A DNA stretch of 64,000 nt from Synechococcus elongatus PCC 11801. Lineage in GTDB: Bacteria; Cyanobacteriota; Cyanobacteriia; Synechococcales; Synechococcaceae. Below, piece by piece: positions 136 through 43,676 of this stretch; position 1 is the first letter of the stretch, and each line of letters starts with the position of its first letter. A program made the position numbers and the translations under genes. The stretch is taken from contig NZ_CP030139.2 in NCBI RefSeq assembly GCF_003846445.2, positions 248,001 to 312,000 on the forward strand, written 5' to 3'. The notes under the pieces were generated by a model. It made no database searches, was not told the origin of the DNA, and saw only the letters and a program-made list of their open reading frames with translations.

Positions 136-1137
136 CTATTTCCAAATCCAAACGGCGTCTTTGACCTTGATCGATTTAGGGATGAGATTTAGCGCGCGGA
201 AGGTGTCTGCAATTTCTTGCTGTTTTTGAATGACGGGGTTGGTGATGGGTAAGACATCGTGGGTGCGACGGTTTTCAGCGATGAGCAAGGTCTTAGGACT
301 GATACCCGTGGCTGAGGAAAGAAGATTGGCCGCCTTCGTTTTGTCTTTGTTGAGCAGTTGGGCTTCCTGCTTGAATTCCTTGAGGACGGTCTTGAGAGTC
401 TCTGGATATTTCTTGATGAACGAGGCAGAAGCGAGATAGTAGCCGCGGTTGGGCGCTAGCCCTTGGGCATTGGTCAGTAGACGACCACCGGCTTCCACTT
501 CGCCAGCGGCGAGGAAAGGATCCCAGACGACCCACGCATCGACATCCCGACGCTCGAAGGCAGCTCGGCCATCAGAGGGCTTGAGGTAAGAGATTTTGAC
601 GTCGCTGGGTTTGAGATTGGCCGATTTCAGCGCACTGATTAATAGGTAGTGGGTGTTGGAGCCTTTTTGGACCGCAATCCGCTTCCCTTTCAGGTCTGAC
701 AGTTTTTTGATGGGAGAGTTGCGATGAACAAGGATGCCTTCGGCCTTCGGCCCAAAGGGATCGTAGGCAACATAGCGAGTCACAGAGCCAGAGGCAGCTT
801 GCGCAAAGATGGGCGGGGCTTCGCCAACGTAGGCAATATCGATCGCGCCAGCATTCAGAGCCTCGACCATCGGCAGACCGGCAGTAAATTCTGACCAAGT
901 GGCAGAACTACCGGTTTTTTTGAGGGTTTTCTCTAGCGTTTTCTTGGCATTGACAGAGATAAGAACAGGGCCGGCTTTTTGGAAGCCGATGCGCACCTGG
1001 ACTTTTTCTTCTGGCTTGGCTGTAACGGGGGCGGAGTTCCCAAAAACTGTCACGGCTGTCGTCGCGGTGGCAGCAACGGCAACGCCCGCTAGCAAGGCTT
1101 TGACTTTGCGGCGGCCTAGAGCAGTTTTGAGAGCCAC
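136..1137 (-). CDS. ssuA: Aliphatic sulfonate ABC transporter substrate-binding protein
   Basis: 333 residues, the usual length for SsuA-type periplasmic binding proteins. The N-terminus has basic residues (RRKVKA) and a hydrophobic alanine/valine segment (about residues 14-33), a signal peptide. The mature part has typical family patterns: VRIGFQKAGP, MVEALNAGAIDIAYVGEAPP, LKGKRIAVQKGSNTHYLL, VDAWVVWDPF. It captures organic sulfonates in the periplasm for an SsuBC-type permease; those genes are not visible here, but ssuD follows directly. The start is GTG at 1137, with an AGAGGA stretch about 10 nt upstream. The exact ligand (sulfonate, taurine or other) cannot be read from sequence. Confidence 0.9.
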   Translation of the reverse strand: MALKTALGRRKVKALLAGVAVAATATTAVTVFGNSAPVTAKPEEKVQVRIGFQKAGPVLISVNAKKTLEKTLKKTGSSATWSEFTAGLPMVEALNAGAIDIAYVGEAPPIFAQAASGSVTRYVAYDPFGPKAEGILVHRNSPIKKLSDLKGKRIAVQKGSNTHYLLISALKSANLKPSDVKISYLKPSDGRAAFERRDVDAWVVWDPFLAAGEVEAGGRLLTNAQGLAPNRGYYLASASFIKKYPETLKTVLKEFKQEAQLLNKDKTKAANLLSSATGISPKTLLIAENRRTHDVLPITNPVIQKQQEIADTFRALNLIPKSIKVKDAVWIWK

Positions 1138-1369
1138 AGGTACTCGATCCTCTTATCTACAAAATCTCCATGTAATTACCGTATTTTTGAAAAATAATGC
1201 CATCAAGTCTCTAGGAAGCTTGACAAAGTTCTGGTTTTAGCCTGTAGCTTTCCAATACTGCTTTCAGCCTTAGGAGTTGACGGTCAATTGCTACTAAGAC
1301 TGGCTTTCAGGAAGACAACGAGCTTGGAAGGATAAACGCGATCGCCTGCACTAGAGGATCGCGGGAGTA

Positions 1370-1528
1370 GGAACCGCTCCGCAGTTTGACTATGAACCAG
1401 CCAATGGACAGTGGTGCTGTCGATTGGTTTGGCAGGAGCAAGCGTTTGAGGCGATCGCTTCCTCAAAAGTGAGGGCAAGGGAGCTGGCTGCGCTGATGGT
1501 GCTGAAGGGAATTTGTTTGGTTAAGTGA
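1370..1528 (+). repeat. R1: partial copy of the 3' end of the RNB exoribonuclease gene
   Basis: The stretch aligns with 21667-21827, the end of the intact RNB gene, and the reading frame is preserved for about 50 codons: GCT CCG CAG TTT GAC onward gives APQFDYEPANGQWCCRLVWQ, then EAIASSKVRARELAALMVLK. The final Trp codon of the parent is TGA here, so the copy stops one codon early. Similarity begins abruptly at 1370; upstream DNA does not match. It is a dispersed gene fragment (dsRNA-binding-domain tail), not a gene. Confidence 0.85.
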
Positions 1529-1544
1529 TCGGGCGATCACTTAA
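1521..1544. other. Perfect palindrome at the end of R1
   Basis: TTAAGTGATCG and CGATCACTTAA are 11-bp complementary arms around a central GG. They start inside the last codons of R1. No T-run follows, so this is not a classic intrinsic terminator on either strand. It could be a protein-binding site or recombination end. Confidence 0.5.
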
Positions 1545-1684
1545 CTCTAATATTTAGTCTTTAACATTAAGGTTTGAGAATATAAATCAGCCGTAGTTAT
1601 TTTCTATGACTAGAATTTATTTGACTGTCTTGACTGCTCAAAAAACAAATACTCTAGTGCTAACCCAATAACGAGGATCATGAA

Positions 1685-2356
1685 GTGGCCAAATGCACGG
1701 CTCCTCGAGAGGGCCATCGCTCAGCGAGCGCTGCTGCGAACTGCCCTGTATGCGGTGGTCGCTATAGACGCAATCAAGGCTACGGAACGTCTTTGTCCTA
1801 CTCTTCTTTGGGGAGCATCGAGGGCAGTCAGGGCAACAGTACAAGGCCCCATTGGTCTCCGGCCAGATCCTCTGTCGTCTACACTCCTACAGAAATACGA
1901 GCACTGACACCGATTTACAACAGTGTTGAGAAGCTAGCGACACTACCAAGCCTTTGGGATGTTTTCCTTTGCCACGCATGGGACGACCGTCAGGGCGCAG
2001 CCAAGAAGCTCCATGATCGATTGGAAGAACGTGGCCTGCAAGTCTGGTCCAGCAAGAAAGACGTTGGTTTCGGCGTGCCATTGCTATTATCTATTGACGA
2101 AGGTTTGGCGAACGCACGAGTCGGGATTGTGTTGGTGACCCCTGCGCTGCTGCACCGATTACCAACAGAGGGCATTACTGATAAAGACTTTTCAGAACTG
2201 CTTGCACGTGATCAGATCATTATCATCGTGCACGAAACAACGTATGAGGCTCTCCGTAACGTCAGCCCCCTACTGGCATCTCGTAGCGGACTGAGCACCG
2301 CAGAAGATTCAATGTCAACTGTTGCAGCCAAAATTGCTGAGCTTTTCGGCTTTTAG
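1685..2356 (+). CDS. TIR-domain protein with N-terminal zinc-ribbon-like segment
   Basis: 223 residues. The N-terminus carries two cysteines as CPVCGGRY (residues 20-27) plus Cys4, a possible small zinc site. Residues about 90-220 form a TIR domain: WDVFLCHAWDDR (beta1 and the A loop), GLQVWSSKKDVGFGVPLL (BB-loop region), SIDEGLANARVGIVLVTPALL, and DKDFSELL, where Glu171 sits at the position of the NADase catalytic glutamate. TIR domains in bacteria act as NAD-consuming effectors or nucleotide-signal producers in anti-phage defence. No partner gene is adjacent, so a complete defence system is not visible. Start: GTG with GAGG 8 nt upstream. It lies between RNB-tail copies R1 and R2. Confidence 0.8.
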   Translation: MAKCTAPREGHRSASAAANCPVCGGRYRRNQGYGTSLSYSSLGSIEGSQGNSTRPHWSPARSSVVYTPTEIRALTPIYNSVEKLATLPSLWDVFLCHAWDDRQGAAKKLHDRLEERGLQVWSSKKDVGFGVPLLLSIDEGLANARVGIVLVTPALLHRLPTEGITDKDFSELLARDQIIIIVHETTYEALRNVSPLLASRSGLSTAEDSMSTVAAKIAELFGF

Positions 2357-2449
2357 ATCAGAATGGGCGCACTGCCTTGGCAGATTGCAGCGGACGAAGG
2401 TAAGCCGCTGCTTTTTGCTGAGAAAAGACATCTTTTATTTAGCCAAACA

Positions 2450-2580
2450 ACTCCATGCCGCAGGGAACTGTGGTTGAAAACGCGGTGATTTAGGGGATGT
2501 CGAGGGCGATCGCTTCTTCAAAAGTGAGGGCGCGTGAACTCGCAGCACTGCTTCTGAAGGGAATCTGTTTATCAGAGTGA
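2450..2580 (+). repeat. R2: repeat with shared 45-bp leader plus RNB-gene 3' tail copy
   Basis: From about 2505, GCGATCGCTTCTTCAAAAGT onward matches the parent end at about 21747; in frame it reads AIASSKVRARELAALLLKGI, with one codon deleted relative to the parent. The preceding 45 bp (CTCCATGCCGCAGGGAACTG to TTTAGGGG) are not in the parent gene but recur in R3 and R4. The copy therefore belongs to a secondary family derived after the tail was fused to this leader. Confidence 0.75.
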
Positions 2581-2641
2581 TCGAACTCTCTCCTCTCACT
2601 TGGGCGCGGCTTGTTGGATGCGCTGCGAGCCTATTTTAGCT

Positions 2642-2662
2642 ACTTAAATTTTGAATTTAAGT
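2642..2662 (-). terminator. AT-rich hairpin after the outer-membrane-protein gene
   Basis: ACTTAAATT and AATTTAAGT are perfect 9-bp arms with a 3-nt loop, immediately downstream of the stop codon of the minus-strand gene at 2666. The stem is AT-only apart from one pair, so termination strength is doubtful. Confidence 0.35.
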
Positions 2663-2665
2663 CAC

Positions 2666-3661
2666 TTAAAAACGAATTTGAAGCCCAAGCTGCAGCCCTG
2701 TTTGAGTGATATCAAAGCTATTAGGGCTCGCATCCGTATTGCTTAAGTTTAGGCGGAGCGTTCGATAGGCCAGATTGAGGTTCGTCGAGTTTCCTATCTT
2801 AATTGCGGCACCCACAATGCCGTTAGCGCTGAGGTTTTCTCCACCGCCTAGACCAAGTCCACCAATATCTCCTCTGGCAAAGAGTGAAAATTCGGGCGTG
2901 ACGATCAGCTTCAGTTCACTGCCTAGCAAGGGCTGAACTTTGGTTTGCGATGAACTCAAAAAGCGCTGACTGCTGATCTCTCGTCGTCCTGTCCGTGAGG
3001 TACTTGAAACCTGTAGATCAAGGGATGTTGCAACATCGACCACCCGAACCCCCACATAGGGCGAGACAGATAGGACTAATCCCCCATTTGGATCAGGGCG
3101 ATCGCTACCAAAGCGATATTGAGCAGCGAAATCATAGATCCCTTGACTTGTGTTGACAGTTGTCGCTGCATCGATCGCACGAGTCCGTCCTCTTGGCCCT
3201 TCTAACACATTGATTGAACGTAGACCGCTGCCTTTTAAATCCACATAGTACAAGTCTGTAAAGAGTGCAAATTGATCCTTTTCAAGTCGAGCTCTTGCTG
3301 CTGCTGCAAAGGAGAGTGCTTCTAAAACTTGTCCCAGACCTGCATCAATATTGGCGGTTACTCCACGAACAGTAATCGGTCCTTGGACTCGGAGGGGAGC
3401 AAAAACATAGGGCTCGATACTAAATTTCCAGGCCTCTGATGACTCTGAGTCATTAGTTACTGACTGAGGGGATTCTGTCTGAGGGGATTCTTGGACTTCC
3501 GTGGAGATCAGCTTAGGCTGAGCATCACTCGATTCTAGGAGTGTATCGGCACGACTCTCTGGGGCTGTAGCTAATGTGAGGAGGCTCAGGCTAGCAACAG
3601 GTAGTAAAAAATATTTAAAGCCCACAATCCTCGGGTGATAGCTAGGTTGGTTCTTCATCAT
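2666..3661 (-). CDS. Secreted outer-membrane beta-barrel-like protein
   Basis: 331 residues. It has a signal peptide (hydrophobic FLLPVASLSLLTLATAPESRA, cleavage near residue 39). A Ser/Glu/Gln-rich linker follows (about 40-78), then alternating amphipathic strands such as WKFSIEPYVFAPLRV, FALFTDLYYVDLKG, YDFAAQYRFG, LSVSPYVGVRVVDV, FSLFARGDIGGLGLGG, and a C-terminus ending in LQLGLQIRF. A terminal aromatic residue after alternating strands is typical of outer-membrane barrels. It probably forms a small barrel in the outer membrane. It is divergent from the formylglycine-generating-enzyme/sulfatase pair; it could deliver their substrate, but that is inference. Two ATGs (3661, 3658) are possible starts. 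Confidence 0.65.
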   Translation of the reverse strand: MMKNQPSYHPRIVGFKYFLLPVASLSLLTLATAPESRADTLLESSDAQPKLISTEVQESPQTESPQSVTNDSESSEAWKFSIEPYVFAPLRVQGPITVRGVTANIDAGLGQVLEALSFAAAARARLEKDQFALFTDLYYVDLKGSGLRSINVLEGPRGRTRAIDAATTVNTSQGIYDFAAQYRFGSDRPDPNGGLVLSVSPYVGVRVVDVATSLDLQVSSTSRTGRREISSQRFLSSSQTKVQPLLGSELKLIVTPEFSLFARGDIGGLGLGGGENLSANGIVGAAIKIGNSTNLNLAYRTLRLNLSNTDASPNSFDITQTGLQLGLQIRF

Positions 3662-3900
3662 AAAGAGTGAGAAAGCTCTCGTAAAGCTCTTTCAAAAATC
3701 CTTCCGCGAACACTCAAACTGCCGAATTTTTGATGCTGGTGTATAGAAATAAAGGCTGTGATCGCAATGCATACTTAGTTTGAATTAAGAGATTTTCATT
3801 TGAATTGCACTTTAGTTACATAAACACTATTTCTGGGTCGCCGTGTCAGTCTGTGAAGGCTATTTGACCATCGTTTTGAACCGATGAATTGGCAGCCTGG
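3662..3900. promoter_or_regulatory. Divergent promoter region between the outer-membrane protein and the sulfatase-maturation gene
   Basis: 239 bp, AT-rich in the middle (about 3720-3840), the only space for promoters of both divergent transcripts. No individual -10/-35 boxes or operators can be fixed with confidence. Confidence 0.35.
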
Positions 3901-4932
3901 ATGGGTAGATTGAAGCTTCCTGACCCTTGGTATCAAAGGCTTGGGTTCTTTTGGCTATGGAGTCTTTGCTTGGCCGGACTTCTGCTGTGGGCTCAGCCTG
4001 CTTGGGCTTGTCCCCCTGAGATGGTTGCTATTTCGGGCGGCACGTTTCGCTTGGGCGCTGCCGCACAATTACCTGAAGAGCAGGCCGTTGACGATGTTCG
4101 CCTCTCTACGTTTTGTATCGATCGCCACGAAGTAACCAACGATCAATTTCTCGCCTTTGTGAGCGCGACTGGCTACGTCACTGTGGCAGAGCGGCCGCTG
4201 CTATCTGACCAGTTTCCCGAGCTGAGTCCAGCAGAGCGAGCCCCAGGCTCAGTGGTTTTTCAAGCTCCAGAAGCCAATCAAGCGGTTCCAGAATTGAGTT
4301 GGTGGCATTGGGTTCCCGGTGCCAACTGGCGACACCCGACGGGACCCAACAGTGACCTCGTGGGCAAAGGGGATCATCCTGTTGTCCATATGGCTTTTGA
4401 AGATGCCCAAGCCTATGCTGATTGGGCAGGCAAAACCCTCCCCACCGAAGCCCAATGGGAGTTTGCGGCACGGGGCGGGCTCAAAGATCAAATTTTTAGT
4501 TGGGGCAACACCTACTCACCCCGCAAAGCCAACACTTGGCAAGGGCATTTCCCTAAGGACAATAGCGGTGCGGATGGCTATCTTGGGACTGCTCCAGTCG
4601 AGTCATTTCCGCCGAATGGCTATGGCCTCTACGACATGACCGGCAACGTCTGGGAGTGGACAAAAGACTGGTACCAAGTAGGACATCCCCAGAAGGCACA
4701 CCAACATAATCCTTGGGTTAGTCAAGTTCAGGACAGTCTAGATCCCCGCGATCCCGGCATCGCCAAACACGTCATTAAAGGGGGGTCGTTTCTCTGTGCC
4801 CAGAACTATTGCAGTCGTTATCGGCCAGCCGCCCGCGAAGCCCAATCCCCTGATACGGGCACCTCTCACATTGGCTTCCGCTTGGTCGCGCCCCTAGAAG
4901 ACTTCTCACCATTACTGTCTGCTCATTCCTAA
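3901..4932 (+). CDS. Formylglycine-generating enzyme (sulfatase-modifying factor)
   Basis: 343 residues from the ATG at 3901; a TTG 12 nt upstream would add four residues. It has a hydrophobic N-terminal signal (LGFFWLWSLCLAGLLLWAQPAWA) followed by the SUMF1/FGE fold: MVAISGGTFRLGA, FCIDRHEVTNDQFLAFV, HPVVHMAFEDAQAYADWAGK, LPTEAQWEFAARGG, GNVWEWTKDWY. Near the C-terminus GGSFLCAQNYCSRYRPAARE holds the two catalytic cysteines (about Cys299 and Cys304), and IGFRLV closes the domain. FGE oxidises the Cys of a CxPxR motif in sulfatases to formylglycine; this one appears exported. Its presumed client starts 6 bp after its stop, so the two form an operon. Confidence 0.9.
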   Translation: MGRLKLPDPWYQRLGFFWLWSLCLAGLLLWAQPAWACPPEMVAISGGTFRLGAAAQLPEEQAVDDVRLSTFCIDRHEVTNDQFLAFVSATGYVTVAERPLLSDQFPELSPAERAPGSVVFQAPEANQAVPELSWWHWVPGANWRHPTGPNSDLVGKGDHPVVHMAFEDAQAYADWAGKTLPTEAQWEFAARGGLKDQIFSWGNTYSPRKANTWQGHFPKDNSGADGYLGTAPVESFPPNGYGLYDMTGNVWEWTKDWYQVGHPQKAHQHNPWVSQVQDSLDPRDPGIAKHVIKGGSFLCAQNYCSRYRPAAREAQSPDTGTSHIGFRLVAPLEDFSPLLSAHS

Positions 4933-4938
4933 GCTGCC

Positions 4939-7506
4939 ATGCCTAGCCTGTTCTCTCGACTTTGCTCGCGCCTGTCTCTCCGTCCGCTGCAGTCGGTTCT
5001 GGCTGGTTTTTTGGCGCTGATCCTGGTGATCTCAACCGGGTTTTGGTGGACTCCCGCGATCGCTCAAAAAATCACTGGAACCCCTGGAGCACCGGATGCC
5101 ACGACGACTATCCTCGGCAATCAGCTCCCAGCTCCCCCCTCGCCCTTTGGCGGTGTCATCAAGAATGGAGCCTTGCAGTCGAAGCCTTGGTGGGCACCCA
5201 GGATCGTTCCTCCGCAGCAAGCGCCTAATGTGCTGTTGATCATCACCGATGATGCTGGTTTTGGGGTGCCCAGTACCTTCGGTGGTGTGATTCCTACTCC
5301 AGCGATGGATCGTGTCGCCAAGGCCGGGCTGCGATACAACCGCATGTTCTCCACGGCGCTGTGTTCTCCCACGCGTGCCGCCCTGATCACCGGCCGCAAT
5401 CACCACTCCGCCGGTTTTGGAGTGATCTCGGAGCAGGCTACCGGTTTCCCTGGCTACAACAGCATCATCGAGCGCGACAAGGCCACGATCGGCCGCCTGC
5501 TCAAGGACAATGGCTATGCCACCGCCTGGTTCGGCAAGAACCACAACACGCCCGCCTTCCAGGCCAGCCAGAGCGGGCCCTTCGATCAGTGGCCCACGGG
5601 GATGGGCTTCGAGTACTTCTACGGCTTCGTGGGTGGGGACGCCAACCAGTGGCAGCCGAACCTGTTCCGCAATACCACCCAGATCTATCCCTTCGAGGGT
5701 AAGACTCCCGGCAGCTGGAACCTGGTGACCGCGATGGCGGATGACGCCATTGACTACATGACGCGGATGCACCAGATCAACCCCAGCAAGCCGCTGTTCA
5801 TCAAGTACGCCCCCGGAGCTACCCATGCTCCCCACCACCCCACCCAGGAGTGGGTGGACAGGATCCACGCCATGCATCTCTTTGATGATGGCTACGAGAA
5901 ACTGAGGGAACGAATCTTCGCGAACCAGAAGAAGCTCGGCGTGATTCCCAAGGACGCCAAGCTCGATCCTTGGCCTGCTGATCTGATTACGCCTTGGGAC
6001 CAGCTGAGCCCGGAGGCCCAGAAACTTTTCATCCGCCAGGTGGAGGTGTTCGCTGCTTACGCCGCCTACAGCGACTATGAGATCGGCCGGGTGATCCAGC
6101 AGTTCGAAGACCTCGGTAAGCTCGACAACACGCTGATCATCTACATCAACGGCGACAACGGCACCAGCGCCGAAGGCGGCCCGCTAGGTACCCCTAATGA
6201 GGTGGCCTGGTTCAACGGCCTCAACATGCTGCCCGTCGATGTTCAGATGAAGTTCTTCGACGTGTGGGGCACCGACCAGACCTACAACCACATGTCGGCG
6301 GGTTGGTCGTGGGCTTTCGACACCCCTTTCAGCTGGTTCAAGCAGAACGCCTCCCGCCTCGGCGGCGTGAATCAGAACATGGTTGTGTCGTGGCCAGCGC
6401 GGATCAAGGACAAGGGCGCTTTGCGTGAGCAGTTCGTGCACGTGATCGACGTGGTGCCGACCATCCTAGAGGCTGCGGGTCTACGGGCGCCAAATCTGGT
6501 GGACGGCATCCCCCAGAAGCCAATTGAGGGCACGAGCTTCGTTTATACCTTCGATGGCAAGAATGCCAAGGCGCCCTCAAGGCACGAGCGGCAGTATTTC
6601 GAGATGTTTGGGCAATGGGCTCTCTATGACAAGGGCTGGCTGCTGAGCACAAAGGTGAACCGTGCTCCTTGGGAGTCCTTTGGCCCGGCTAACCCCGATC
6701 CGCTCAACAACCAGACGCTGGAGCTCTACGACCTCAAGCGTGACTTCAGCCAGACCACCGACTTGGCAGCCCAGAATCCGCAGAAACTGAAGGAGATGAA
6801 GGAGGCGTTCATTGCCGAGGCGAAGAAGTATCAGGTGTTCCCGCTTGATGCCTCGGTAGCGGCGCGGATCGTGGCGCCACGGCCAAACATCACCGCCGGA
6901 CGCCGTGAGTTCGTCTACACCCGGCCGATGGTGGGGCTGCCCCAGGGCGATTCACCCCTGCTGCTCAACACCTCCTACAGCGTCACTGCCGACATCGAGG
7001 TGCCGGCTGGCGGCGCCGAGGGCATGCTGCTGACCTCTGGCGGCCGCTTCGGTGGCTATGGCTTCTACCTCAAGAATGGCAGGCCCGTTTGGGTGTGGAA
7101 CATGGTGGATCTGGAGCGCCTGAAGTGGGAGGGAACCGAGCCGCTCTCGCCTGGCAAGCACAAGGTCGCGTTCGATTTTGTCTACGACGGCAAGGGGACC
7201 GGCACCCTGGCCTTCAACGACTTCAGTGGCGTTGGCCGCCCCGGCACCGGCACCCTCAAGGTGGATGGTCAAGTGGTTGCGACCAAAACTATGCCCAAAA
7301 CCCTGCCGATGATCCTGCAGTGGGATGAAAGCTTTGATATCGGCTCTGATACGCTCACCGGTGTTAATGACGCTGACTACCAGCCTCCATTCCGCTTTAC
7401 TGGCAAGCTCAATAAGCTGACTGTGACGGTCAATCGACCTCAGCTGTCACCCGCAGATATCAAGGAGTTGGAGGCAACGATGCGCACCAAGGCTATTAGT
7501 GACTAG
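4939..7506 (+). CDS. Exported arylsulfatase (formylglycine-dependent)
   Basis: 855 residues. Signal peptide at residues 1-34 (LAGFLALILVISTGFWWTPAIA). The sulfatase domain starts at APNVLLIITDDAGFG (metal-binding Asp pair) and holds the signature LCSPTRAALITGR, with Cys142 as the residue converted to formylglycine. Further conserved pieces are WFGKNHNTP, IIYINGDNGTSAEG and FVHVIDVVPTILEAAG. The C-terminal 200 residues look like a beta-sandwich. It hydrolyses sulfate esters outside the cytoplasm; the substrate is unknown. The 5' end carries a HIP1 site (5056-5063). The body from about 5330 to 7270 uses strongly C/G-ending codons and no HIP1, unlike the flanks, suggesting an imported or recombined core. 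Confidence 0.92.
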   Translation: MPSLFSRLCSRLSLRPLQSVLAGFLALILVISTGFWWTPAIAQKITGTPGAPDATTTILGNQLPAPPSPFGGVIKNGALQSKPWWAPRIVPPQQAPNVLLIITDDAGFGVPSTFGGVIPTPAMDRVAKAGLRYNRMFSTALCSPTRAALITGRNHHSAGFGVISEQATGFPGYNSIIERDKATIGRLLKDNGYATAWFGKNHNTPAFQASQSGPFDQWPTGMGFEYFYGFVGGDANQWQPNLFRNTTQIYPFEGKTPGSWNLVTAMADDAIDYMTRMHQINPSKPLFIKYAPGATHAPHHPTQEWVDRIHAMHLFDDGYEKLRERIFANQKKLGVIPKDAKLDPWPADLITPWDQLSPEAQKLFIRQVEVFAAYAAYSDYEIGRVIQQFEDLGKLDNTLIIYINGDNGTSAEGGPLGTPNEVAWFNGLNMLPVDVQMKFFDVWGTDQTYNHMSAGWSWAFDTPFSWFKQNASRLGGVNQNMVVSWPARIKDKGALREQFVHVIDVVPTILEAAGLRAPNLVDGIPQKPIEGTSFVYTFDGKNAKAPSRHERQYFEMFGQWALYDKGWLLSTKVNRAPWESFGPANPDPLNNQTLELYDLKRDFSQTTDLAAQNPQKLKEMKEAFIAEAKKYQVFPLDASVAARIVAPRPNITAGRREFVYTRPMVGLPQGDSPLLLNTSYSVTADIEVPAGGAEGMLLTSGGRFGGYGFYLKNGRPVWVWNMVDLERLKWEGTEPLSPGKHKVAFDFVYDGKGTGTLAFNDFSGVGRPGTGTLKVDGQVVATKTMPKTLPMILQWDESFDIGSDTLTGVNDADYQPPFRFTGKLNKLTVTVNRPQLSPADIKELEATMRTKAISD

Positions 7507-7600
7507 ATCACCGGATTCTTGACTGATGAAATTGGATCAACGCCCATCGCAAGCTATGGGGCTGGTATTTGGAAATAGAAGGAAATCTTTTTAAGTAAAC

Positions 7601-7714
7601 AGCTCCACGCTGCTGGGCTCTGTGGTTAAGAAAGCAGATATTTAGGGGCGATCCGCTCCCTCGAAAGTGAGGGCAAGGGAATTGGCAGCGCTGATAGTGA
7701 TGAAGGGAGTTAGC
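7601..7714 (+). repeat. R3: shared leader plus RNB-gene 3' tail copy
   Basis: Leader AGCTCCACGCTGCTGGGCTC to TTTAGGGG resembles the R2 leader. Then GCGATC plus CGCTCCCTCGAAAGTGAGGG continues along the parent 3' end (about 21747-21815), including AATTGGCAGCGCTGATAG. One inserted base after GCGATC breaks the parent frame, so this copy is non-coding. It is followed by the palindrome GCTCTCTA-AGGGGA-TAGAGAGC at 7718-7739. Confidence 0.7.
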
Positions 7715-7810
7715 TTGGCTCTCTAAGGGGATAGAGAGCAAGCGGGTGATGAGTAGTTTTTAGTGAGAATTTACAGACTGATAATTACTGTTCTAACTGA
7801 GTTAACTCAA

Positions 7811-7847
7811 ACAAAAGAGCTGCTCAATCTTAAAGACAGAACAGCTC
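7811..7847 (-). terminator. Intrinsic terminator of the cation-efflux/MBL operon
   Basis: On the minus strand GAGCTG and CAGCTC form a stem, with further pairing inside the loop, followed by TTTTGT. It lies 26 bp beyond the stop at 7873. Confidence 0.6.
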
Positions 7848-7872
7848 CTTAAAGGTGGATAGCCTTATGAGG

Positions 7873-8868
7873 CTATGCTGAGAATTTAAATTGTGATCCT
7901 AGGCCACCATAGAGATAGTTATCCTTGTAAAAGTCCTTGAAAATTTTAAAGCCAAGATGTCCTGTGCAATGGGCTGGTGAAACAATCCGAACTCCCAGAT
8001 CATTCTTGACTTTGTTAGCAAGAGCTGTGATGTATGTCGCATCATAGGGGAAAAGATGAAACCCACCCAATGCAGCATAAGTAGACTTCCCAGTCGCTTT
8101 TTGAGTCGCTTCAATAATGGCTTCGATGCCAGTATGAGAGCAACCCGAAATGAGAACTTCTCCTCGGGAAGTATCGAGGGCAAGGGAGAGTTCTGGTAAG
8201 CCGACAAGTGCGGGCTCTGTTGGGGTTTTGGGGGGATAGCCGTTAAAGCCTCCGAGGTAGGGCGATCGCGTTGAAATAATGGTGATTCCCGGAGCAACTG
8301 TTAAGTTGTCACGAAGATATTCAACATTTTTGGCTTTGTAGTACCGTCCACTCGGCTTGAGTTGAACTTCTGTTGCACCTGTATCGAAGTAACGTTCTTC
8401 CGGTGGGAGTGCAGCGGCGGCATTGGGATCAGGGCCACCAAACTTGAAGAGGGATGGTGCTCCAAGGTTATGAAGGTCAGCAGGGAGATAGAGTTTGACG
8501 TTGGGATTGACTTCAACAAGATAGTCAAAACCACTCAAGTGATCGGCATGGGGATGCGAGAGAACCGCAAAATCAATCGTCCTTAGGTCAAGTCCTAGCT
8601 TCTTAACATTGCGCTTAAAAATATCGGCATTATTACCAGCATCAAACAAGATGCGTTTACCGTTGTACTCAACAAGTGCACTGTAACCCCAATCTTTTTC
8701 GAGTGTCTGACTAGAGCTAATTGCATCGTACAGACTAGTAATACGGTTTTGACCAGCCGGTGGTGATGCTGCTAGAACACGAGAGGGCTGAAGAAAACTG
8801 GTTACTCCGAAGACAAGAAAAGTTCCCAGAATAAACAGCAAACTCATTGATAGGAGTCGTTTTTTCAT
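7873..8868 (-). CDS. Secreted metallo-beta-lactamase-fold hydrolase
   Basis: 331 residues from the ATG at 8868. This start is chosen because it is preceded by AGAGGA, overlaps the stop of the upstream gene as ATGA, and begins a good signal peptide (MKKRLLSMSLLFILGTFLVFGVTSFL). The metallo-beta-lactamase fold shows SHPHADHLSG (HxHxDH metal site), SGCSHTGIEA and SPAHCTGHLGF as later metal-ligand motifs. It resembles the COG1237-type hydrolases (related to ribofuranosyl-aminobenzene phosphate synthase) rather than beta-lactamases proper. Activity is probably on a phosphate or ester outside the cytoplasm; the substrate is unknown. It is translationally coupled to the cation-efflux gene. Confidence 0.82.
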   Translation of the reverse strand: MKKRLLSMSLLFILGTFLVFGVTSFLQPSRVLAASPPAGQNRITSLYDAISSSQTLEKDWGYSALVEYNGKRILFDAGNNADIFKRNVKKLGLDLRTIDFAVLSHPHADHLSGFDYLVEVNPNVKLYLPADLHNLGAPSLFKFGGPDPNAAAALPPEERYFDTGATEVQLKPSGRYYKAKNVEYLRDNLTVAPGITIISTRSPYLGGFNGYPPKTPTEPALVGLPELSLALDTSRGEVLISGCSHTGIEAIIEATQKATGKSTYAALGGFHLFPYDATYITALANKVKNDLGVRIVSPAHCTGHLGFKIFKDFYKDNYLYGGLGSQFKFSA

Positions 8869-9719
8869 CGGATTAGATCCTCTAGAGATGGAGAGAGCAA
8901 AGGATTCAAGGTACGCGGGGAATGGTTCACAGAGCAGTTGCAATAGTCTGCAAGACAAGATTGCAAGGCTGTTATTGGCTTTTGGAATGATTTCGCTACT
9001 TGAATTGTTGGAAGACTAAAGAGTTGTTGGCTAACCTTAAGCAGGAGTAGCAAAGCAAAAATTAGAATCATTAAAGAGACTAATAAGCTTGTTAGACCGT
9101 CTGCCCAGCTCCAATTCCAATACGTTACTGCGATCGCACCAAGAACAACGCCAACAGAGCTAACAACATCTGCAATGACATGGAAGAAAGCACTTTTAAG
9201 GTTGAGATTATGGTGACTGCAGCTTTTGAGACAGATAGCATTAATGAGATTAATTAATAAGCCTGCAACTGCAGCCCCCAGCATGGGGAGCCCTAGAATT
9301 TCTATTTCTCCGAGCTGCAATCGTTGAATTGCTTCAATCGCGATTGTGACTGCAACAATTAGTAAGCTACAGGTATTGATAAAAGCAGATTGAATTTCGA
9401 GACGCTCTGGACTCGGAAGCCAGCGATACCGGTGTGGTGATTGAGCTAAGTAATTTGAAATAAGCGTTGTAAGCAGTGCGGCAATATCAATGCTGACATG
9501 ACCAGCATCAGCTATTAGAGCCAGGCTGTGACTCCAGTAGCCAATTCCTAGCTCTACTAGAAATAACCCAAATAAAAGACAGATTGAAATACTGAGGTGA
9601 AGCTGTAGGGAAACTCTTTTAGGCTCAGGTCTCGATTGAGAATTAACAAGAGGTTTTCCTCGTATTTGCAGCAAAAAACGAGGCAGATCAGATGGAGAAT
9701 AAGCAACCTGCATTAGCAA
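8865..9719 (-). CDS. Cation diffusion facilitator family transporter
   Basis: 284 residues with about six membrane segments. The two metal-site motifs of the family are present: ALIADAGHVSID in the second and AFFHVIADVVSSVGV in the fifth transmembrane helix (HxxxD in each). A hydrophilic loop CLKSCSHHNLNLKSA lies between helices 4 and 5. The family exports Zn2+, Co2+, Fe2+ or Mn2+ by proton antiport. The cytoplasmic C-terminal metal-sensing domain, common in longer members, is short or missing here. Its TGA stop overlaps the ATG of the secreted MBL-fold gene by 4 bp (ATGA), so the two are co-translated. Exact metal unknown. Confidence 0.85.
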   Translation of the reverse strand: MLMQVAYSPSDLPRFLLQIRGKPLVNSQSRPEPKRVSLQLHLSISICLLFGLFLVELGIGYWSHSLALIADAGHVSIDIAALLTTLISNYLAQSPHRYRWLPSPERLEIQSAFINTCSLLIVAVTIAIEAIQRLQLGEIEILGLPMLGAAVAGLLINLINAICLKSCSHHNLNLKSAFFHVIADVVSSVGVVLGAIAVTYWNWSWADGLTSLLVSLMILIFALLLLLKVSQQLFSLPTIQVAKSFQKPITALQSCLADYCNCSVNHSPRTLNPLLSPSLEDLIR

Positions 9720-9850
9720 TCTGCGGTAAACCGGTAGAGCTTTAGATGTTTGGCAATTGAATCATTTCATAGTTGTTAGAAAATGACAAGACTTAGCTCT
9801 GGCGATTGGCCAGTAGCTTTTGTGAACCATGCAGCTAGAGATGTTGAAGC

Positions 9851-9901
9851 ATATGGATCCATGCCGCAGAAAGCTGCGGTTGAGAAAGCGGGTGTTTAGG
9901 G
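9851..9901 (+). repeat. R4: leader part of the repeat family
   Basis: ATGGATCCATGCCGCAGAAA through GGTGTTTAGGG is clearly similar to the leader of R2 and R3. After 9901 only GGCGATCGC of the RNB tail is recognisable before the sequence diverges, so R4 is the most eroded copy. It lies between the cation-efflux gene and the CyRepA1-like remnant. Confidence 0.55.
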
Positions 9902-9947
9902 TAAGGCTCAGGCGATCGCGTTTCGCTTCCTGCCCTGCTGCCGTGGT

Positions 9948-10539
9948 TTAGGACGCTTCTTGGAGGCGATTTAGGGAGTGATTTAGGGGATGGGCCTCTA
10001 GGATTTGCGGCTGGGGAGTCGAGATCGGCTCGTTGTCGGCCACACCTTCTAATAGGAGGAGAGTTAGGGGGTGTGGCCGTAGTCGGAAGCCCTGCTCCTG
10101 GTAGTGCTTTGCCCTTGTCTGCAACAGGGTTTTGAGCTGTTTGAGGCTCGATTGCTCAAGCCGGTAGTAGCGGGTTCTGAGACGGGTCTGGCAGTTGCCA
10201 CCGTCGCGCTGCATGACGGTACTGAGGCCAAACTGTTTGAGCACCATGCCGACGATCGCGGTGGGTTGCATGCTGGGGCGAATCGTCAGGTTGAGGCAGA
10301 GCTTCAGCACGGGCGATTGCTTCTGCATCGGCTTGGCAAACTTGCTGCTGAGCTGCTTTCCAGAGTTCGAGGGCGGTTTGCAAACTGGGGCAATCGAGAT
10401 CCCGTAGGGCTTCGCAAGCAACAAAGTTTCCTGCTAGTTCCAAACGTAGTTGCAGAGACAAACCGAACTCGGCCATGGCTGCATTGCGCTCGGCAGAGCT
10501 GGCAGCGTGATAGCGAGCACTGGGCGAATGGAAATTCAC
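9948..10539 (-). pseudogene. Frameshifted C-terminal fragment, probably CyRepA1-family plasmid replication protein
   Basis: Two overlapping minus-strand frames join into one plausible protein. The first (from 10539) reads AERNAAMAEFGLSLQLRLEL and DCPSLQTALELWKAAQQQ. After a shift near 10285-10305 the second continues LNLTIRPSMQPTAIVGMVLK and RTRYYRLEQSSLKQLKTLLQ to the stop at 9948. Each frame becomes low-quality sequence where the other is good, the pattern of a frameshift. The content recalls the C-terminal part of cyanobacterial CyRepA1/DUF3854 primase-helicases, and a second fragment of that family lies at 39.7 kb. Family identity is moderate; the broken frame is clear. Confidence 0.5.
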
Positions 10540-10663
10540 CTTTTCAAGCAGGGAGCGATCGCCCTATCTCATCGTTGTGTATTGGTGACACGCAATTAAA
10601 GAGCTTGAGTAGGGTTGTAAGGCCATAACGATTCAATCCTTTTAAGATATGGTCTCGCCACTT

Positions 10664-13861: not shown

Positions 13862-14127
13862 CTATTCGAAGACGCTCTCTTGCGCGCTCTGCGCCTCCAT
13901 CTGCACGAGCACCCACGTTTCTTTGCCAGCTTTCGTCCAAGCTTTTACCAGCTTGTCGGCGTAGCGGCGACCCACCTTGGCGTCAGCCGTGATCTGTTGC
14001 AGTTCCTTATCTGGGAATTCGTAGCCGCGCTCTCAAGCAATTTTGGAATCGGCAGAAAGAAGCCGATAATCTCGTCGGAAAGAAGGCTTCAATCAGTTCT
14101 TTCCAGGGTGAGTCGCTCTCAGTGTTG
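13862..14127 (-). pseudogene. Remnant of an Rpn-family (DUF4351-type) putative transposase/nuclease
   Basis: Reading the minus strand from 14127, SDSPWKELIEAFFP is followed after a frame change by EIIGFFLPIPKLLES, and after another by GYEFPDKELQQITADAKVGR, RYADKLVKAWTKAGKETWVL and VQMEAQSAQESVFE, then a stop at 13862-13864. These pieces, in order, match the N-terminal PD-(D/E)XK region of cyanobacterial Rpn/DUF4351 proteins (SPWKE..., GYEFLDKELQQ..., WVLVHIEIQ...). Frameshifts and a missing C-terminal half make it a dead gene. Confidence 0.7.
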
Positions 14128-14168
14128 GGCAAGTCTGGGGTTGGCCTGTTATTAGCTTAGGAGGTCAC

Positions 14169-14226
14169 ATCCAGCAGAATCGGGAGATGAAACCTGTTCT
14201 GACGATTGATAGACTGAGCAGCCTTA
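14169..14226 (+). repeat. Copy of the 5' end of the RNB exoribonuclease gene
   Basis: Matches 20418-20475, including about 18 bp upstream of the start codon (ATCCAGCAGAATCGGGAG against ATCCGGCAGAATCAGGGG) and the coding start ATG AAA CCT GTT CTG ACG ATT GAT. It translates MKPVLTIDRLSSLIESE against MQPVLTIDGPTSLDLDD, so the catalytic aspartates beyond the first are lost. Similarity then fades and a stop follows. It is the only 5' fragment seen; all other copies are 3' tails. Confidence 0.75.
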
Positions 14227-15710: not shown

Positions 15711-15775
15711 GCCGGTCTGAATTCCTCATAAACCCAACCTGTTGTCGTTTCTGTTCTTTCCCCGTTGGTGTGGTC

Positions 15776-20350: not shown

Positions 20351-20435
20351 TCTAACGGCGGCGATCAGGTTCTTCTCCTGCGGTCGAGGTGATGTTAGCT
20401 GCCGCTGCTGAACTGGTATCCGGCAGAATCAGGGG

Positions 20436-21827
20436 ATGCAACCTGTTCTGACGATTGATGGACCGACTAGCCTTGACCTTGATGATGGGGTCTGGGCAGA
20501 ACCGGAGGGCGATCGCATTCGACTGACCATCGCGATCGCGGGAGTCGCTACAGCTTTGCCGCATCTCGGGATTGAGGAATGTGTGGCGCTGGCTCGGCTG
20601 CAGACGGTCTATCACGGCACTCAGATGACTCGCGCCATGCTCTCGCCAGAGCGAACCGAGGCTTTATCTCTGTTGCCTGCGGGTCCCCGTCCAGTGGTCT
20701 GTTTACAGGCGGCGATCTCGCGGCGGGGGGAGGTGCTGTCGTTTGAGTTTTCGGAAACCGTTGTGGAGTCGGCAGCGAAGCTCAGCTATGAGCAGGTCAA
20801 TCAGATCCTGGCTGGACAGGAAGATCATGGTCTGAAGGAAGTGCTGCGCTGTCTTGCGGTGGTGGCAACTCGCTTGGATAAGAACCGGCGTGGTCTCTGG
20901 GGGCGATCGCGGCAGGGGGAGTTTCGCGATGACCTGGGCTCTGTGGTTACGGGCAAGGCGGAGCAGTTGATTGCTTCCACGGCGATTCTCTACAACCAAC
21001 TGGTAGGAGAAGTGCTGAAGCAGGCAGGACTACCAGCGCTATTTCGGGTGCAAGACCCCCGACAGGATGAGGCGATCGCGCCACTTTTTGAGCAACATGA
21101 CGGCGATCCGGTGGTGCTGGCTCCCTTGATTAGTCACTGTCTACCGAGGGCACAGCATCGCGTTAAGGCTGGTCTTCACTGGGCGTTGCAGCTGCCTGCC
21201 TATGCGCGATCATCTAGTCCACTACGGCGCTATGAGGATTTGGTCAATCAGCGACAGTTGCTAGCGGTCTTGAATCAGTCGCCGTCTTTCTATCCGCCGG
21301 AGTTATTGCTGGGCGTTTGCGATCGCCTTCAGGATCGAGCGATAGCTGAGGTGGAGCGGCAGAAACAGAAGTCGGAGGAGAAGTGGCTGAGGGCGGCGTC
21401 TTCGGTCAAGCAATTGGAAACGGTGACTGAGGGGCAGTTTTCAGCGGTGTTGCGGCAAGTCTCGGTGATTGGTGCGATTCCGCCTAAGTTGGAGCAACAG
21501 CTACGGGAGCGATTGAAAAAGGGGAGTCTGACGCCCAAACATGCAGCCCAGATCCTCTCGGAGGAGTTTCCAGCCGATTTGAAGCAGGCGCTGATTGCCA
21601 AGCTCAGTCAGGGTGATCCGCTGCTGAATGGCTTGATGGTGCTCAATACCTTGGGGCAGTTGATTGGCACCGCTCCGCAGTTTGACTATGAACCAGCCAA
21701 TGGGCAGTGGTGCTGTCGCTTGGTCTGGCAGGAGCAATCCGTTGAGGCGATCGCTTCCTCGAAAGTTAGGGTGCGAGAATTGGCTGCGCTGATGGTACTT
21801 AAGGGAATTAGTTTGGTTGAGTGGTAA
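20436..21827 (+). CDS. RNB-domain exoribonuclease (RNase II/R family) with dsRNA-binding-like tail
   Basis: 463 residues. The protein begins directly with the RNB catalytic motif: TIDGPTSLDLDDGVW places Asp8, Asp14, Asp16 and Asp17 with the same spacing as the metal-binding aspartates of RNase II. The domain continues through ISHCLPRAQHRVKAGLHWAL and AYARSSSPLRRYEDLVNQRQLLAVL, the conserved C-terminal RNB motif with its arginines. There are no N-terminal cold-shock domains and no standard S1 domain. The last ~95 residues (GQWCCRLVW to SSKVRVRELAALMVLKGI) look like a dsRNA-binding domain end (SKK..AK..AA...L pattern). It degrades RNA 3' to 5' in the cytoplasm. Fragments of its two ends occur at 1.4, 2.5, 7.6 and 14.2 kb; a related leader lies at 9.9 kb. 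Confidence 0.85.
   Translation: MQPVLTIDGPTSLDLDDGVWAEPEGDRIRLTIAIAGVATALPHLGIEECVALARLQTVYHGTQMTRAMLSPERTEALSLLPAGPRPVVCLQAAISRRGEVLSFEFSETVVESAAKLSYEQVNQILAGQEDHGLKEVLRCLAVVATRLDKNRRGLWGRSRQGEFRDDLGSVVTGKAEQLIASTAILYNQLVGEVLKQAGLPALFRVQDPRQDEAIAPLFEQHDGDPVVLAPLISHCLPRAQHRVKAGLHWALQLPAYARSSSPLRRYEDLVNQRQLLAVLNQSPSFYPPELLLGVCDRLQDRAIAEVERQKQKSEEKWLRAASSVKQLETVTEGQFSAVLRQVSVIGAIPPKLEQQLRERLKKGSLTPKHAAQILSEEFPADLKQALIAKLSQGDPLLNGLMVLNTLGQLIGTAPQFDYEPANGQWCCRLVWQEQSVEAIASSKVRVRELAALMVLKGISLVEW
21667..21827 (+). repeat. R0: parent copy of the RNB-gene 3' tail repeat
   Basis: The coding end of the intact RNB gene that is duplicated at R1 (1370-1528) and, in shorter form, at R2 and R3. It encodes the dsRNA-binding-like tail. 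Confidence 0.75.
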
Positions 21828-35036: not shown

Positions 35037-35300
35037 TATTTATTTCAGTTGAAGTCCCGCTTAGTGGATCCAGACATGGAAGTACGCTGCTGGATTGCCA
35101 ATACTCTGAAACGGATTGGCACTGAAGCTGCAGTGGACGCTCTCTTCCAAGCACTGCATGAGCTACCGGCAGAGGAATTAGAGAGAAGATACCTGAGTCG
35201 TCCCACCTATGCACTTCTGCTGGACGGATTGAATCAGCCCTTTGCCTCGGCAGGGGAGAAGCTGGTGTCGGTGTTTCTGTCTGAGGGCGATCGCGCTTTT
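35037..35300 (+). pseudogene. HEAT-repeat protein fragment fused to an unknown fragment
   Basis: The stretch reads FQLKSRLVDPDMEVRCWIAN, TLKRIGTEAAVDALFQALHE (a HEAT-type helix pair), then NQPFASAGEKLVSVFLSEGD. There is no good start and it ends abruptly near 35300, where the antisense recombinase fragment begins. The last 70 bp have a near-identical copy at about 39590-39660 on the opposite strand. It appears to be debris from one or two larger genes. Confidence 0.5.
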
Positions 35301-35842
35301 AGATCCTGCCAGCGGAGGCTACAGAGTTCAGAAACCCTCACCCCTGCTCCATAGAGCACTTGCAGAATCAAGCGATCGCGGTCATTGCCCGCCGCTGCAA
35401 TCAGGCTTTGAATGATGCTTTCAGGCAAGATCCGTTCAGCCAACGTGTCTTTGACTTTGGGGGCATGAATGGCAGCTGCTACATTCACGGGCACCACACC
35501 CAAGCGCTTCGACAAGAAGCTAAACAGCGACTTCAGCACAGCCACAGTCCGCCGCCGACTCGAAGCCTGCAAACACTCAGGCGAATGACGAAGAAGGACA
35601 GCGCGATCGCCCCGAGGTAGTTGATCGAGCCGATCGAGATAGATTTGCAAATCCGCCAGCGTCACTTGGGGCAAAGGCTTCTGAACCCAGTGCCGAAACA
35701 CCCGTGCCTCTTGCAAGTAGTAACGCTGAGTATGTGGCGATCGCCCATGGACCCACAGTGCTAAGGCTGGTTCCCAAGTATCTGCTGAGGAGGATGGAAC
35801 AAGCTCAGTCGGACTGGATCGCGCGATCGCCCTTGATGTCAT
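35234..35842 (-). pseudogene. Truncated tyrosine recombinase (XerC/XerD/phage-integrase type)
   Basis: The first ~178 codons give a SAM-like core-binding domain (SPHTQRYYLQEARVFRHWVQ, RRRTVAVLKSLFSFLSKRLG, NVAAAIHAPKVKDTLAERIL) and the start of the catalytic domain: RDRLILQVLYGAGVRVSELC SLRWQDL, which holds the first catalytic Arg. Homology then stops at about 35300; the remaining Lys, HxxR and Tyr nucleophile are missing. Strand exchange is therefore impossible. The last codons overlap the unknown fragment on the other strand. The start ATG at 35842 looks normal. Confidence 0.75.
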
Positions 35843-35861
35843 GAGCAGGAACTCCAGCGCT

Positions 35862-35879
35862 AGCGATCGCTGTACTGAT
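35862..35879 (+). repeat. Left 18-bp direct repeat flanking the DUF3800 gene
   Basis: AGCGATCGCTGTACTGAT, identical to 36880-36897 and in the same orientation. It includes a HIP1 octamer, but the ten other bases also match. Confidence 0.8.
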
Positions 35880-35922
35880 TCCCATCCAGCTTAATGCAAG
35901 AGTAGAAGACTAATCTTGCATT

Positions 35923-38293: not shown

Positions 38294-39478
38294 TTAAACA
38301 GCAGTCTCGGCACGGGCAGACACCAGATCGATGATGTCGCAAAGCTGATCGATACTGTCATCCTCAAACAGCTCCTCTGGCCCCGTTGCACAGTAATTCG
38401 TAAACGGTGGCTCATAGAGTAGAGCCTTATCCATTACGCCATGAGTCGTCAGATAGTTGATGATTTCATTGACAAACTGAATCTGCGCAGCGCTATACAG
38501 CCGATCGCTTAAAAACTCACTAAACGCCTCTTTTGCTGCGTTGCGATCGAGACCGACCAAGCTGCGGACAAACCGCCAAAATCCCTGACTCTCCTGCTTC
38601 GCCCGATCGATCGCCGCCTGACTGCCAATCTTGTTCGACAGCAAAAAAGTTTCGAGCTCCTCTAGATCGGTAGGTGTGAGCGGTTGATTGCGGCGGAGAC
38701 GTTGAATCGCCAGATGGCTATCGTGTTCCAGTAAAAACTTTTTGGCCTGCAAACGAAAGCGCGTAAAGTCATCGCTGGTAATTAGGGCAAAGGGATCCAG
38801 CTCCTGCGCTTCTCCGAGCTGATCCTCAAAATTGGTGTAGAGCGGTTGCCGTGCCGTCTTTTCAATCAGCCCCACCAAGCCCCGCAGGGTGCGCCGCACT
38901 TTCTCCAGCAACGGCAGAGTCACATCCTCCCACCAGTCTTGGGTTTGCAAGTCCTGAATCAAGCTGAGTTCTGCCCCCACCATCGGGATGGCGCAACGGC
39001 CTTCCAGTAACTGCGCAACGGTCTGTACCCGCGATCGCAATTTGGGATAGTCAGATGCCTGTTTCAGCAGGGCAATTTGCAGCTTGTAAAGCAACAGGTC
39101 AAACTCACGGGCGGCCTTATCATCACTGGGTAGTTGCGAGGGCAGCGTGGCGAGTTGATCTGCCAGCAAGGTTCCGGCAGTGTCATCCAGTTTCCGCCAG
39201 CGATCGCCGTCACTCCATTGCTGCACAGCCTCGCGGAAAGGCTTCACCAAAAAGTTATTGGGGTTCATCGCCTGAATTGTCTGCCGCAGCTGACCCGCCA
39301 GTTGGGCCCGATAGTCCGCCTCATCACGGGGTAAATCGGTCTGATCATCCTGGAGGCCGATTGCCTCAGGGGGTAGCGATCGATCGAGGGCTTGAATCAA
39401 GGCAAGGCGACTGCGGAACAGCTTGGTCGAGAGGGTTTCGCTGGGGCTGCTCTGTTCCTTGGCCATCTCCCAAAGCAT
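38294..39478 (-). pseudogene. hsdR: C-terminal remnant of type I restriction enzyme HsdR
   Basis: 394 open codons matching only the C-terminal region of HsdR: NPNNFLVKPFREAVQQW, WWEDVTLPLLEKVRRTLRGL, VGLIEKTARQPLYTNFEDQL, EHDSHLAIQRLRRNQPLTPT, DLEELETFLL, FVRSLVGLDRNAAKEAFSEF, GVMDKALLYEPPF. The PD-(D/E)XK nuclease and both RecA-like motor domains (some 550 residues) are absent. No hsdM or hsdS is present in the window. It cannot restrict DNA by itself. It directly abuts an unknown fragment in another frame upstream. Confidence 0.8.
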
Positions 39479-39674
39479 AGTACTCCGCTTGGCTCACTAG
39501 CAACTCTGGTACCTGCAACGAGATCCGGTAGCACTCTAAAAACTTGCCCAAGACTCCCATTACATAAGCCTTGATCGGATCAGAAAAGCGATCCCCCTCA
39601 GAAAGGAATACAGACACCAGCTTCTCCCCTGCCGAGCCAAAGGGCTGATTATGGCGGCTGAGTGCTCGGTCCAT
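39475..39674 (-). pseudogene. Unknown gene fragment sharing a 70-bp repeat with 35.2 kb
   Basis: Reads NQPFGSAGEKLVSVFLSEGD, then RFSDPIKAYVMGVLGKFLEC, YRISLQVPELLVSQAEYYAL in one frame, ending where the HsdR remnant starts in another frame. The first ~23 residues and their DNA match the plus-strand fragment at 35230-35300. No family recognised and no credible start. Confidence 0.45.
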
Positions 39675-39955
39675 GTTGCCCAGTGGAACCCCAAATTAGG
39701 CCAAGGCCTCGATGACCTCATCGCCGCTCACGAGGCTGAGAAATGGCATCAGATTCTAGATGCCACCCCATCCTTTGAAGCTTGGTAGCGGCGATGGATT
39801 GAAGGTGCGATGCTGCAACGGCTGCGCTTTCCGCTCAGTCACTATCAACCCTCACTTCAGGTTTCAGAACCAGACCTATCCAAAGCGATCGCCCTCGATG
39901 CGATTCCCCAGAGCAGTATCGTGGCGCTGCCTTCCGGCAAAGGCACCCAAGCGCA
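39666..39955 (+). pseudogene. Fragment of a CyRepA1/DUF3854-type plasmid replication protein
   Basis: The plus strand reads VAQWNPKLGQGLDDLIAAHE, AEKWHQILDATPSFEAW, then an in-frame TAG at 39786, RRWIEGAMLQRLRFPLSHYQ, and SIVALPSGKGT. The pattern W-P-x-G-K/Q-G-x-DDLI followed by a P-loop-like SGKGT is that of cyanobacterial plasmid primase-helicases where the toprim part meets the helicase. Nonsense mutation plus missing ends show it is dead. It ends at a junction with the BrnA remnant. Confidence 0.55.
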
Positions 39956-40133
39956 AGACATCCGGCTTTAAGCGCAGGCTAATGGCCACTTTGGGAGATT
40001 GCGATCGGGGTCTGCTGTTGCGCTTGCCGCCTTGCTTGAGCACCACTCGACTGAGCATTTCATCTGTCAACTCGGGCAAATCGTCATCAGGTTCGCTGGA
40101 AGTATGGCGTGTAGCGGCGGATTTCTCGGGCAT
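39932..40133 (-). pseudogene. BrnA antitoxin remnant
   Basis: MPEKSAATRHTSSEPDDDLP, ELTDEMLSRVVLKQGGKRNS, then SPKVAISLRLKPDVL match the BrnA antitoxin family (DEMxxRA... then PKVxVSLRLDxDVL). The final helix (GWQTRMNxxL) is lost at the junction near 39,950 with the CyRepA1 fragment. The ATG at 40133 overlaps the end of the BrnT remnant, the normal arrangement. Confidence 0.65.
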
Positions 40134-40279
40134 TGCATTTCCTCATAGAGAAGATGTGACGCGATCGCCCGCGAGGTGTAGCCAACCATGACCATGTGGT
40201 CATCGAGGAAGCTAACGGAGAGCACTCGCTTTTCGCCATAGTCGCGCCGGTTATCTTTGACCGCGAGATGATGACTCAC
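40076..40279 (-). pseudogene. BrnT toxin remnant
   Basis: KDNRRDYGEKRVLSVSFLDD and HMVMVGYTSR, then after a one-base frame change RGRSRHIFSMRKCNAREIRR YTPYFQRT to a stop inside brnA. This is the C-terminal half of BrnT (DYGEER..., HTxRGxxxRIISMRKANxRE). The N-terminal half with the catalytic region is missing and the frame is broken, so the toxin is inactive. Confidence 0.65.
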
Positions 40280-42345: not shown

Positions 42346-42369
42346 GTTCTCAATTATTGGGACTCTGAA

Positions 42370-43617: not shown

Positions 43618-43676
43618 TAGGGCTTAGACACACCTAGCGATTATCTGCAGTCTGGTCTTTTGAAAAGGTGAAGGAA

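Follow-up and report, generated by a model that had tools for sequence, protein, structure and literature searches.

The chromosome of Synechococcus elongatus PCC 11801 carries, in a stretch of 64,000 nt (NZ_CP030139.2, 248,001-312,000; hereafter the window, whose numbering is used throughout), an intact gene with an RNB domain and four repeats, R1 to R4, that had been described as copies of that gene's 3' tail set between unrelated gene groups. We consider it probable, at about 0.78, that this part of the chromosome is a mosaic of CyRepA1-family plasmids from S. elongatus, built by repeated fusion through their shared backbone, after which redundant backbone was deleted and pieces of RNB were left behind as scars. 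The comparison drew on the assembly itself (G000, with its chromosome C1 and plasmid contig C2), another genome of the same genus (G001) and plasmid records. All four repeats are present where the sequence-only reading had placed them, well beyond chance, though their nature is in part different from what it supposed.

The leader that precedes the tails had been counted as part of RNB; it is instead the conserved flank that adjoins the replication gene (rep) of CyRepA1 plasmids on its 3' side. When the stretch 9840-10660 was searched against plasmid records, it matched S. elongatus plasmids only, nearly always at an annotated replication gene of the CyRepA1 family, and leader and rep 3' end together have matches at the CyRepA1 genes of 11 plasmid records, all from S. 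elongatus and none from any other organism. The leader copies of R2, R3 and R4, about 60-75 bp long, are 69-76% alike. R4 had been thought to hold the leader only: the leader is there, but the repeat goes on as a rep pseudogene to 10563, which has lost about 430 bp at 10301-10306, with a 6-bp overlap. Sequence of rep occurs both at 9912-10563 and at 39651-39946, each matching the rep of several plasmids.

The RNB gene is likewise of plasmid origin. On pIITB6_1 and pIITB3_1 its counterparts, 89-93% identical, are close to the 3' end of rep, from which a single small, unrelated gene separates them; an intact RNB adjoins the rep flank on these records (pIITB6_1, pIITB3_1, two near-identical plasmids), a decayed one lies at the same edge of the slot on pIITB6_2 and C2, and on pMAL of UTEX 3055 a 34-bp trace of the RNB tail is found about 1.3 kb from the leader of the second rep. 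On CyRepA1 plasmids of S. elongatus, an RNB gene, whether intact or decayed, is followed by variable cargo, the leader and rep, RNB and rep converging on the cargo slot and the leader lying between cargo and rep. This order of RNB, slot, leader and rep, with a HEAT-repeat gene beyond rep, is kept in the window. Read along the sequence, the window appears to consist of joined slots from which the rest of the plasmid is gone: a tail, a Toll/interleukin-1 receptor (TIR) gene and a leader; a tail, the genes for an outer-membrane protein, a formylglycine-generating enzyme and a sulfatase, and a leader; and a tail, the genes for a metallo-beta-lactamase (MBL)-fold protein and a cation diffusion facilitator (CDF) transporter, a leader and the rep remnant. 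The counterpart of the outer-membrane gene on pANL sits 3.7 kb from that plasmid's own leader.

The tails themselves are of unequal length and unequally close to the parent. R1 aligns with the RNB 3' end without gaps (E 4e-53); its local identity is 90.1% to pIITB6_1 (151 bp) and 89.6% to pIITB3_1, and in full alignment it reaches 87.0% to pIITB6_1, 84.3% to pIITB3_1 and 86.4% to the chromosomal parent, values by which R1 is about equally near the plasmid alleles and the parent. R2 and R3 hold only about 70 bp of tail each: R2 (2505-2570) is 75% identical to the parent (E 2e-6) and about 80% to R1, and R3 is 81% identical to the parent (E 7e-12) and 85% to R1. Nor is it true, as had been stated, that only the 3' end is repeated, since the RNB 5' end is duplicated as well. 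The stretch 13862-14225, which holds this head relic, is collinear with pIITB6_1 22692-23060; other RNB pieces are found beyond the window, at 235587-235695 of the chromosome (about 12 kb to the left, beside a further leader) and on C2, which has two head relics. The order in the window is RNB head at 14169, DUF4915 gene, RTX protein and intact RNB; on pIITB6_1 it is a decayed RNB head at 21890, DUF4351 and RNB; and in G001 it is an RNB head at 1602, what reads as an antitoxin and PIN-toxin pair, and RNB at 2446. On pIITB6_1, DUF4351 directly precedes RNB, and the 6-kb insertion with the DUF4915 and RTX genes is missing, making this a second empty site.

The dN/dS ratio (nonsynonymous to synonymous substitution) among intact RNB copies is 0.05-0.08, from which we conclude that the gene is maintained, plasmid and chromosomal copies alike being under strong purifying selection. 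In alignment, the RNB protein is without the N-terminal domains of RNase II and starts at the catalytic aspartate motif IDGPTSLDLDD. A scan of viral contigs gave no relative that would point to a phage origin, and scans of GTDB genome contigs with the RNB protein and the tail pattern gave no match in a set that perhaps does not include near genomes.

The strongest comparison comes from pMAL. Its stretch 42292-28776 is collinear with 13.5 kb of the PCC 11801 chromosome (235704-249238, that is, window -12296 to 1238) at 82.8% identity, and its stretch 28570-26130 with 2.4 kb of the window (7873-10304) at 82.3%, the MBL, CDF, leader and rep order being the same in both. The two stretches are separated on pMAL by 206 bp, between ssuA and an MBL gene about 0.3 kb away from it, and in the window by 6.6 kb, which hold R1, the TIR gene, R2, the sulfatase group and R3; this R1-R3 block, of 6.5 kb, is the only large insertion relative to pMAL. 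The sequence-only reading had asked for a relative lacking the intervening groups, and for the R1-R3 block this plasmid is such a relative, its empty site lying between 28776 and 28570. The spacer contains neither an RNB tail nor a leader, so an insertion in the lineage of PCC 11801 is a simpler explanation than a precise loss from pMAL. In G001, none of the three gene groups has a match, and its RNB is surrounded by short spacing only.

Two of the junctions coincide with HIP1, a short palindrome, GCGATCGC, that is very common in this genome and makes up 0.8% of bases in the first 23 kb. At R2, GGCGATCGCTT belongs to both alignments, as the leader match extends through it and the tail match is strong from its letters onward; this places the join within 11 identical bp that have HIP1 at their centre. 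For the left edge of the block, the homology to the pMAL spacer continues through GCGATCGC at 1338-1345 and then stops (score reached by 0 of 500 shuffles). Akiyama and co-workers reportedly described in 1998 plasmid recombination at HIP1 GCGATCGC in Synechococcus sp. PCC 7002; that account is said to come from experiment, whereas the role of HIP1 here is read from the junctions alone.

The array probably arose by rounds of fusion and deletion. Two replicons, or a plasmid and a copy already in the chromosome, would recombine through the shared RNB or rep and yield a cointegrate in which the backbone is present twice; if one crossover took place in RNB, the resulting order would be RNB, cargo B, leader, rep B and so on to RNB, cargo A, leader, rep A. 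If the redundant middle were then deleted to a point inside the downstream RNB, a leader-tail scar would be left, as in R2 and R3, and a deletion starting inside the upstream RNB would leave a head scar, as at 14169 and in the relics of G001, C2 and pIITB6_1. Some deletions or joins may have taken place at HIP1, and repetition of the process would produce an array of tail, cargo and leader followed by tail, cargo and leader. Both types of scar are found, in the orientation that fusion and deletion predict. The order of events is our reconstruction, in which cointegration would be the source of each module and microhomology the mechanism of the deletions.

On the other hand, several observations fit this history poorly. 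In R3 the join comes about 10 bp sooner in the leader than in R2, off the leader's HIP1, and the HIP1 of R3 is broken; from its sequence R3 may be either an independent join or an R2-type join with a small deletion. That a near-identical leader-tail join should arise twice would be a coincidence, unless one scar is a copy of the other or such joins have a preferred site. Homology to the UTEX 3055 spacer is absent from the right flank of the block up to 7807, and neither the right edge of the block nor the left edge of R1 has a base-by-base explanation. Finally, the blastn and tblastx hits of the window against plasmids include no match to partition genes (ParA/ParB), and for this reason we regard the region as a partial relic and not as a whole integrated plasmid.

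How the tails came to stand between unrelated genes could be explained in other ways. Genomic islands that occupy the 3' end of a protein gene, such as icd or guaA, come with near-identical attachment (att) repeats, an adjacent integrase and the gene tail at their distal end, and they resemble the window in that repeated gene 3' ends surround acquired genes. The proposal that the tails mark a hotspot for acquired genes holds in so far as the groups were acquired separately and recombination passed through the RNB region; that elements inserted site-specifically at the 3' end of RNB, each of them supplying a new tail, is extremely improbable, even though the tails have the parent's orientation and unrelated genes lie between them. 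The att repeats, integrase and tail position all fail here: the tails (1370-7718) are upstream and not downstream of the intact gene; parent and tails are pairwise 67-86% identical (14-33% divergence), with no common, near-identical att core; and by Pfam the main open reading frames of 136-9719 include no integrase, the only recombinase being the relic at 35286-35922. Moreover, the leaders are rep flanks, RNB heads are duplicated too, and the parent is itself a plasmid backbone gene. Decayed tandem gene copies, the simpler alternative offered at the time, came nearer the mark, but the decayed RNB genes look like those of plasmid modules. Duplication of a chromosomal RNB in place, followed by decay and unrelated insertions, would account for finding only fragments beside one intact copy under selection; it is very improbable given that rep-flank leaders go with the tails, that R1 is about as near to plasmid alleles as to its supposed parent, and that comparison with the UTEX 3055 plasmid marks the block as inserted.

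A further possibility is that slots travel as circles: a slot would be excised without rep by recombination between two HIP1 sites, giving a leader-HIP1-tail junction, and would re-integrate through its tail or leader arms, so that the array grows. The R2 scar is exactly the junction expected of such a circle, the inserted block has a tail at both ends, and UTEX 3055 provides an empty site. In that plasmid, however, the target spacer lacks both a tail and a leader arm; the join of R3 is not at the leader's HIP1, duplicated RNB heads are not predicted, and no circle has been seen, nor an empty slot lacking leader and tail; we hold this unlikely. It is improbable, too, that the slots between RNB and rep form a plasmid-specific system of cassette exchange, a HIP1-based counterpart of integron arrays without attC or an integron integrase. 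An integron array as such was rejected: the attC cores (GTTRRRY and RYYYAAC) are absent from 11 leaders, save one GTTRRRY in leader L017, and IntI is not among the 20 window proteins scanned. Fusion of CyRepA1 plasmids with subsequent deletion thus remains our preferred explanation, and the features on which it draws are collected in Table 1.

Table 1. Features of the window, with their closest matches or domain assignments
Feature	Position	Strand	Match or remark
HIP1, left edge of inserted R1-R3 block	1338..1345	.	homology to pMAL spacer ends there
R1 RNB 3' tail relic, 169 bp	1370..1538	+	86.4% to 21666-21834
Cargo 1, TIR protein, ThsB-like (Thoeris)	1685..2356	+	Pfam TIR_2 E 1e-11; PADLOC ThsB E 1.4e-98
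R2 leader, flank beyond CyRepA1 3' end	2438..2513	+	78% to pANL 27897-27973; 78% to UTEX 3055 76056-76127
R2 RNB 3' tail relic	2505..2581	+	75% to parent
R2 junction GGCGATCGCTT (HIP1), common to leader and RNB tail	2505..2515	.	both alignments overlap exactly here
Cargo 2a, outer-membrane protein	2666..3661	-	2651-3741 80% to pANL 32713-31621
Cargo 2b, formylglycine-generating enzyme	3889..4932	+	Pfam FGE-sulfatase E 2e-80
Cargo 2c, sulfatase	4939..7506	+	Pfam Sulfatase E 9e-51; GC about 60%
R3 leader	7590..7648	+	75% to R2 leader
R3 RNB 3' tail relic, degenerate HIP1	7647..7718	+	81% to parent
Cargo 3a, MBL-fold protein	7873..8958	-	Pfam Lactamase_B; collinear with UTEX 3055 pMAL
Cargo 3b, CDF transporter	8865..9719	-	Pfam Cation_efflux; adjoins rep in UTEX 3055 pMAL
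R4 leader	9844..9919	+	88% over 56 bp to plasmid contig C2
Decayed CyRepA1 rep 3' part	9912..10563	-	92% / 82% to pIITB6_1 25168-25563 / 25995-26254
RNB 5' head relic	14169..14225	+	86% to 20418-20474; DUF4351 remnant before it, from 13862
Intact RNB, CyRepA1-plasmid backbone gene	20436..21827	+	Pfam RNB; 92.6% to pIITB6_1; dN/dS 0.06-0.08
HEAT-repeat gene relic (gene beyond rep on plasmids)	35067..35294	+	79-83% to five plasmids
Plasmid tyrosine recombinase relic	35286..35922	+ (tentative)	81.5% to UTEX 3055 49831-50460
Inverted HEAT and rep relics	39472..39946	-	75-81% to plasmids

Some neighbouring features deserve mention. Directly 3' of the R1 tail is a perfect 12-bp hairpin (1519-1546), and near 7719-7741 the R3 tail is followed by a different short one, whose stem, read by eye, has 8 bp. 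The TIR/ThsB homologue may be an orphan, as the adjacent genes scanned do not resemble ThsA. The intact RNB is flanked by a giant Ig-like protein of 3669 aa (22741-33750) and an FG-GAP/RTX protein of 1526 aa (15770-20350). Beside the rep remnant, 10554-10645 looks like what is left of a PIN-domain toxin gene at its 3' end and is 73% identical to G001 2350-2442, just before RNB in that genome. A relic of a BrnT/BrnA region at 39953-40261 is 82-90% identical to plasmid copies. UmuD/UmuC-like genes at 41785-44441 also occur in G001 (7099-9786, 78%), and here plasmid-derived sequence borders them. The stretch 44478-45441 resembles, at 76-82%, a gene pair on several CyRepA1 plasmids, which indicates that plasmid-derived DNA reaches past the main region.

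As a mosaic, the window is of a known kind, integrated and recombined plasmid DNA. Among its closest likenesses is pMAL, which also has a CyRepA1 backbone with two rep and two HEAT copies and is collinear in the sulfonate cluster and from the MBL gene to rep; unlike the window, it is an autonomous plasmid without the R1-R3 block and with no intact RNB. It has been proposed that pMAL itself arose when a pANL-like plasmid fused with a second one; the paper in question (PMC9239245) names HIP1 recombination between plasmids as a precedent, and its reference 31 is the 1998 work of Akiyama and co-workers. pIITB6_1 and pIITB3_1 share with the window an intact RNB beside a small cargo gene and rep, and pIITB6_1 also a decayed RNB head, whereas they have one slot per rep, no array and an intact rep. 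Two points may be new: the pairing of RNB with CyRepA1 at a cargo slot, for which a brief search of the open literature found no earlier description, and the two types of scar.

Overall, the repeat becomes a readable record of gene flow between plasmids and chromosome in a model cyanobacterium, and it points to the site of RNB next to CyRepA1 as a recurrent plasmid cargo slot. The scar sequences, both the leader-HIP1-tail joins and the RNB heads, can be used to count such events in other strains and allow testing whether HIP1 drives the recombination. The conserved RNB itself merits a functional test in plasmid maintenance.

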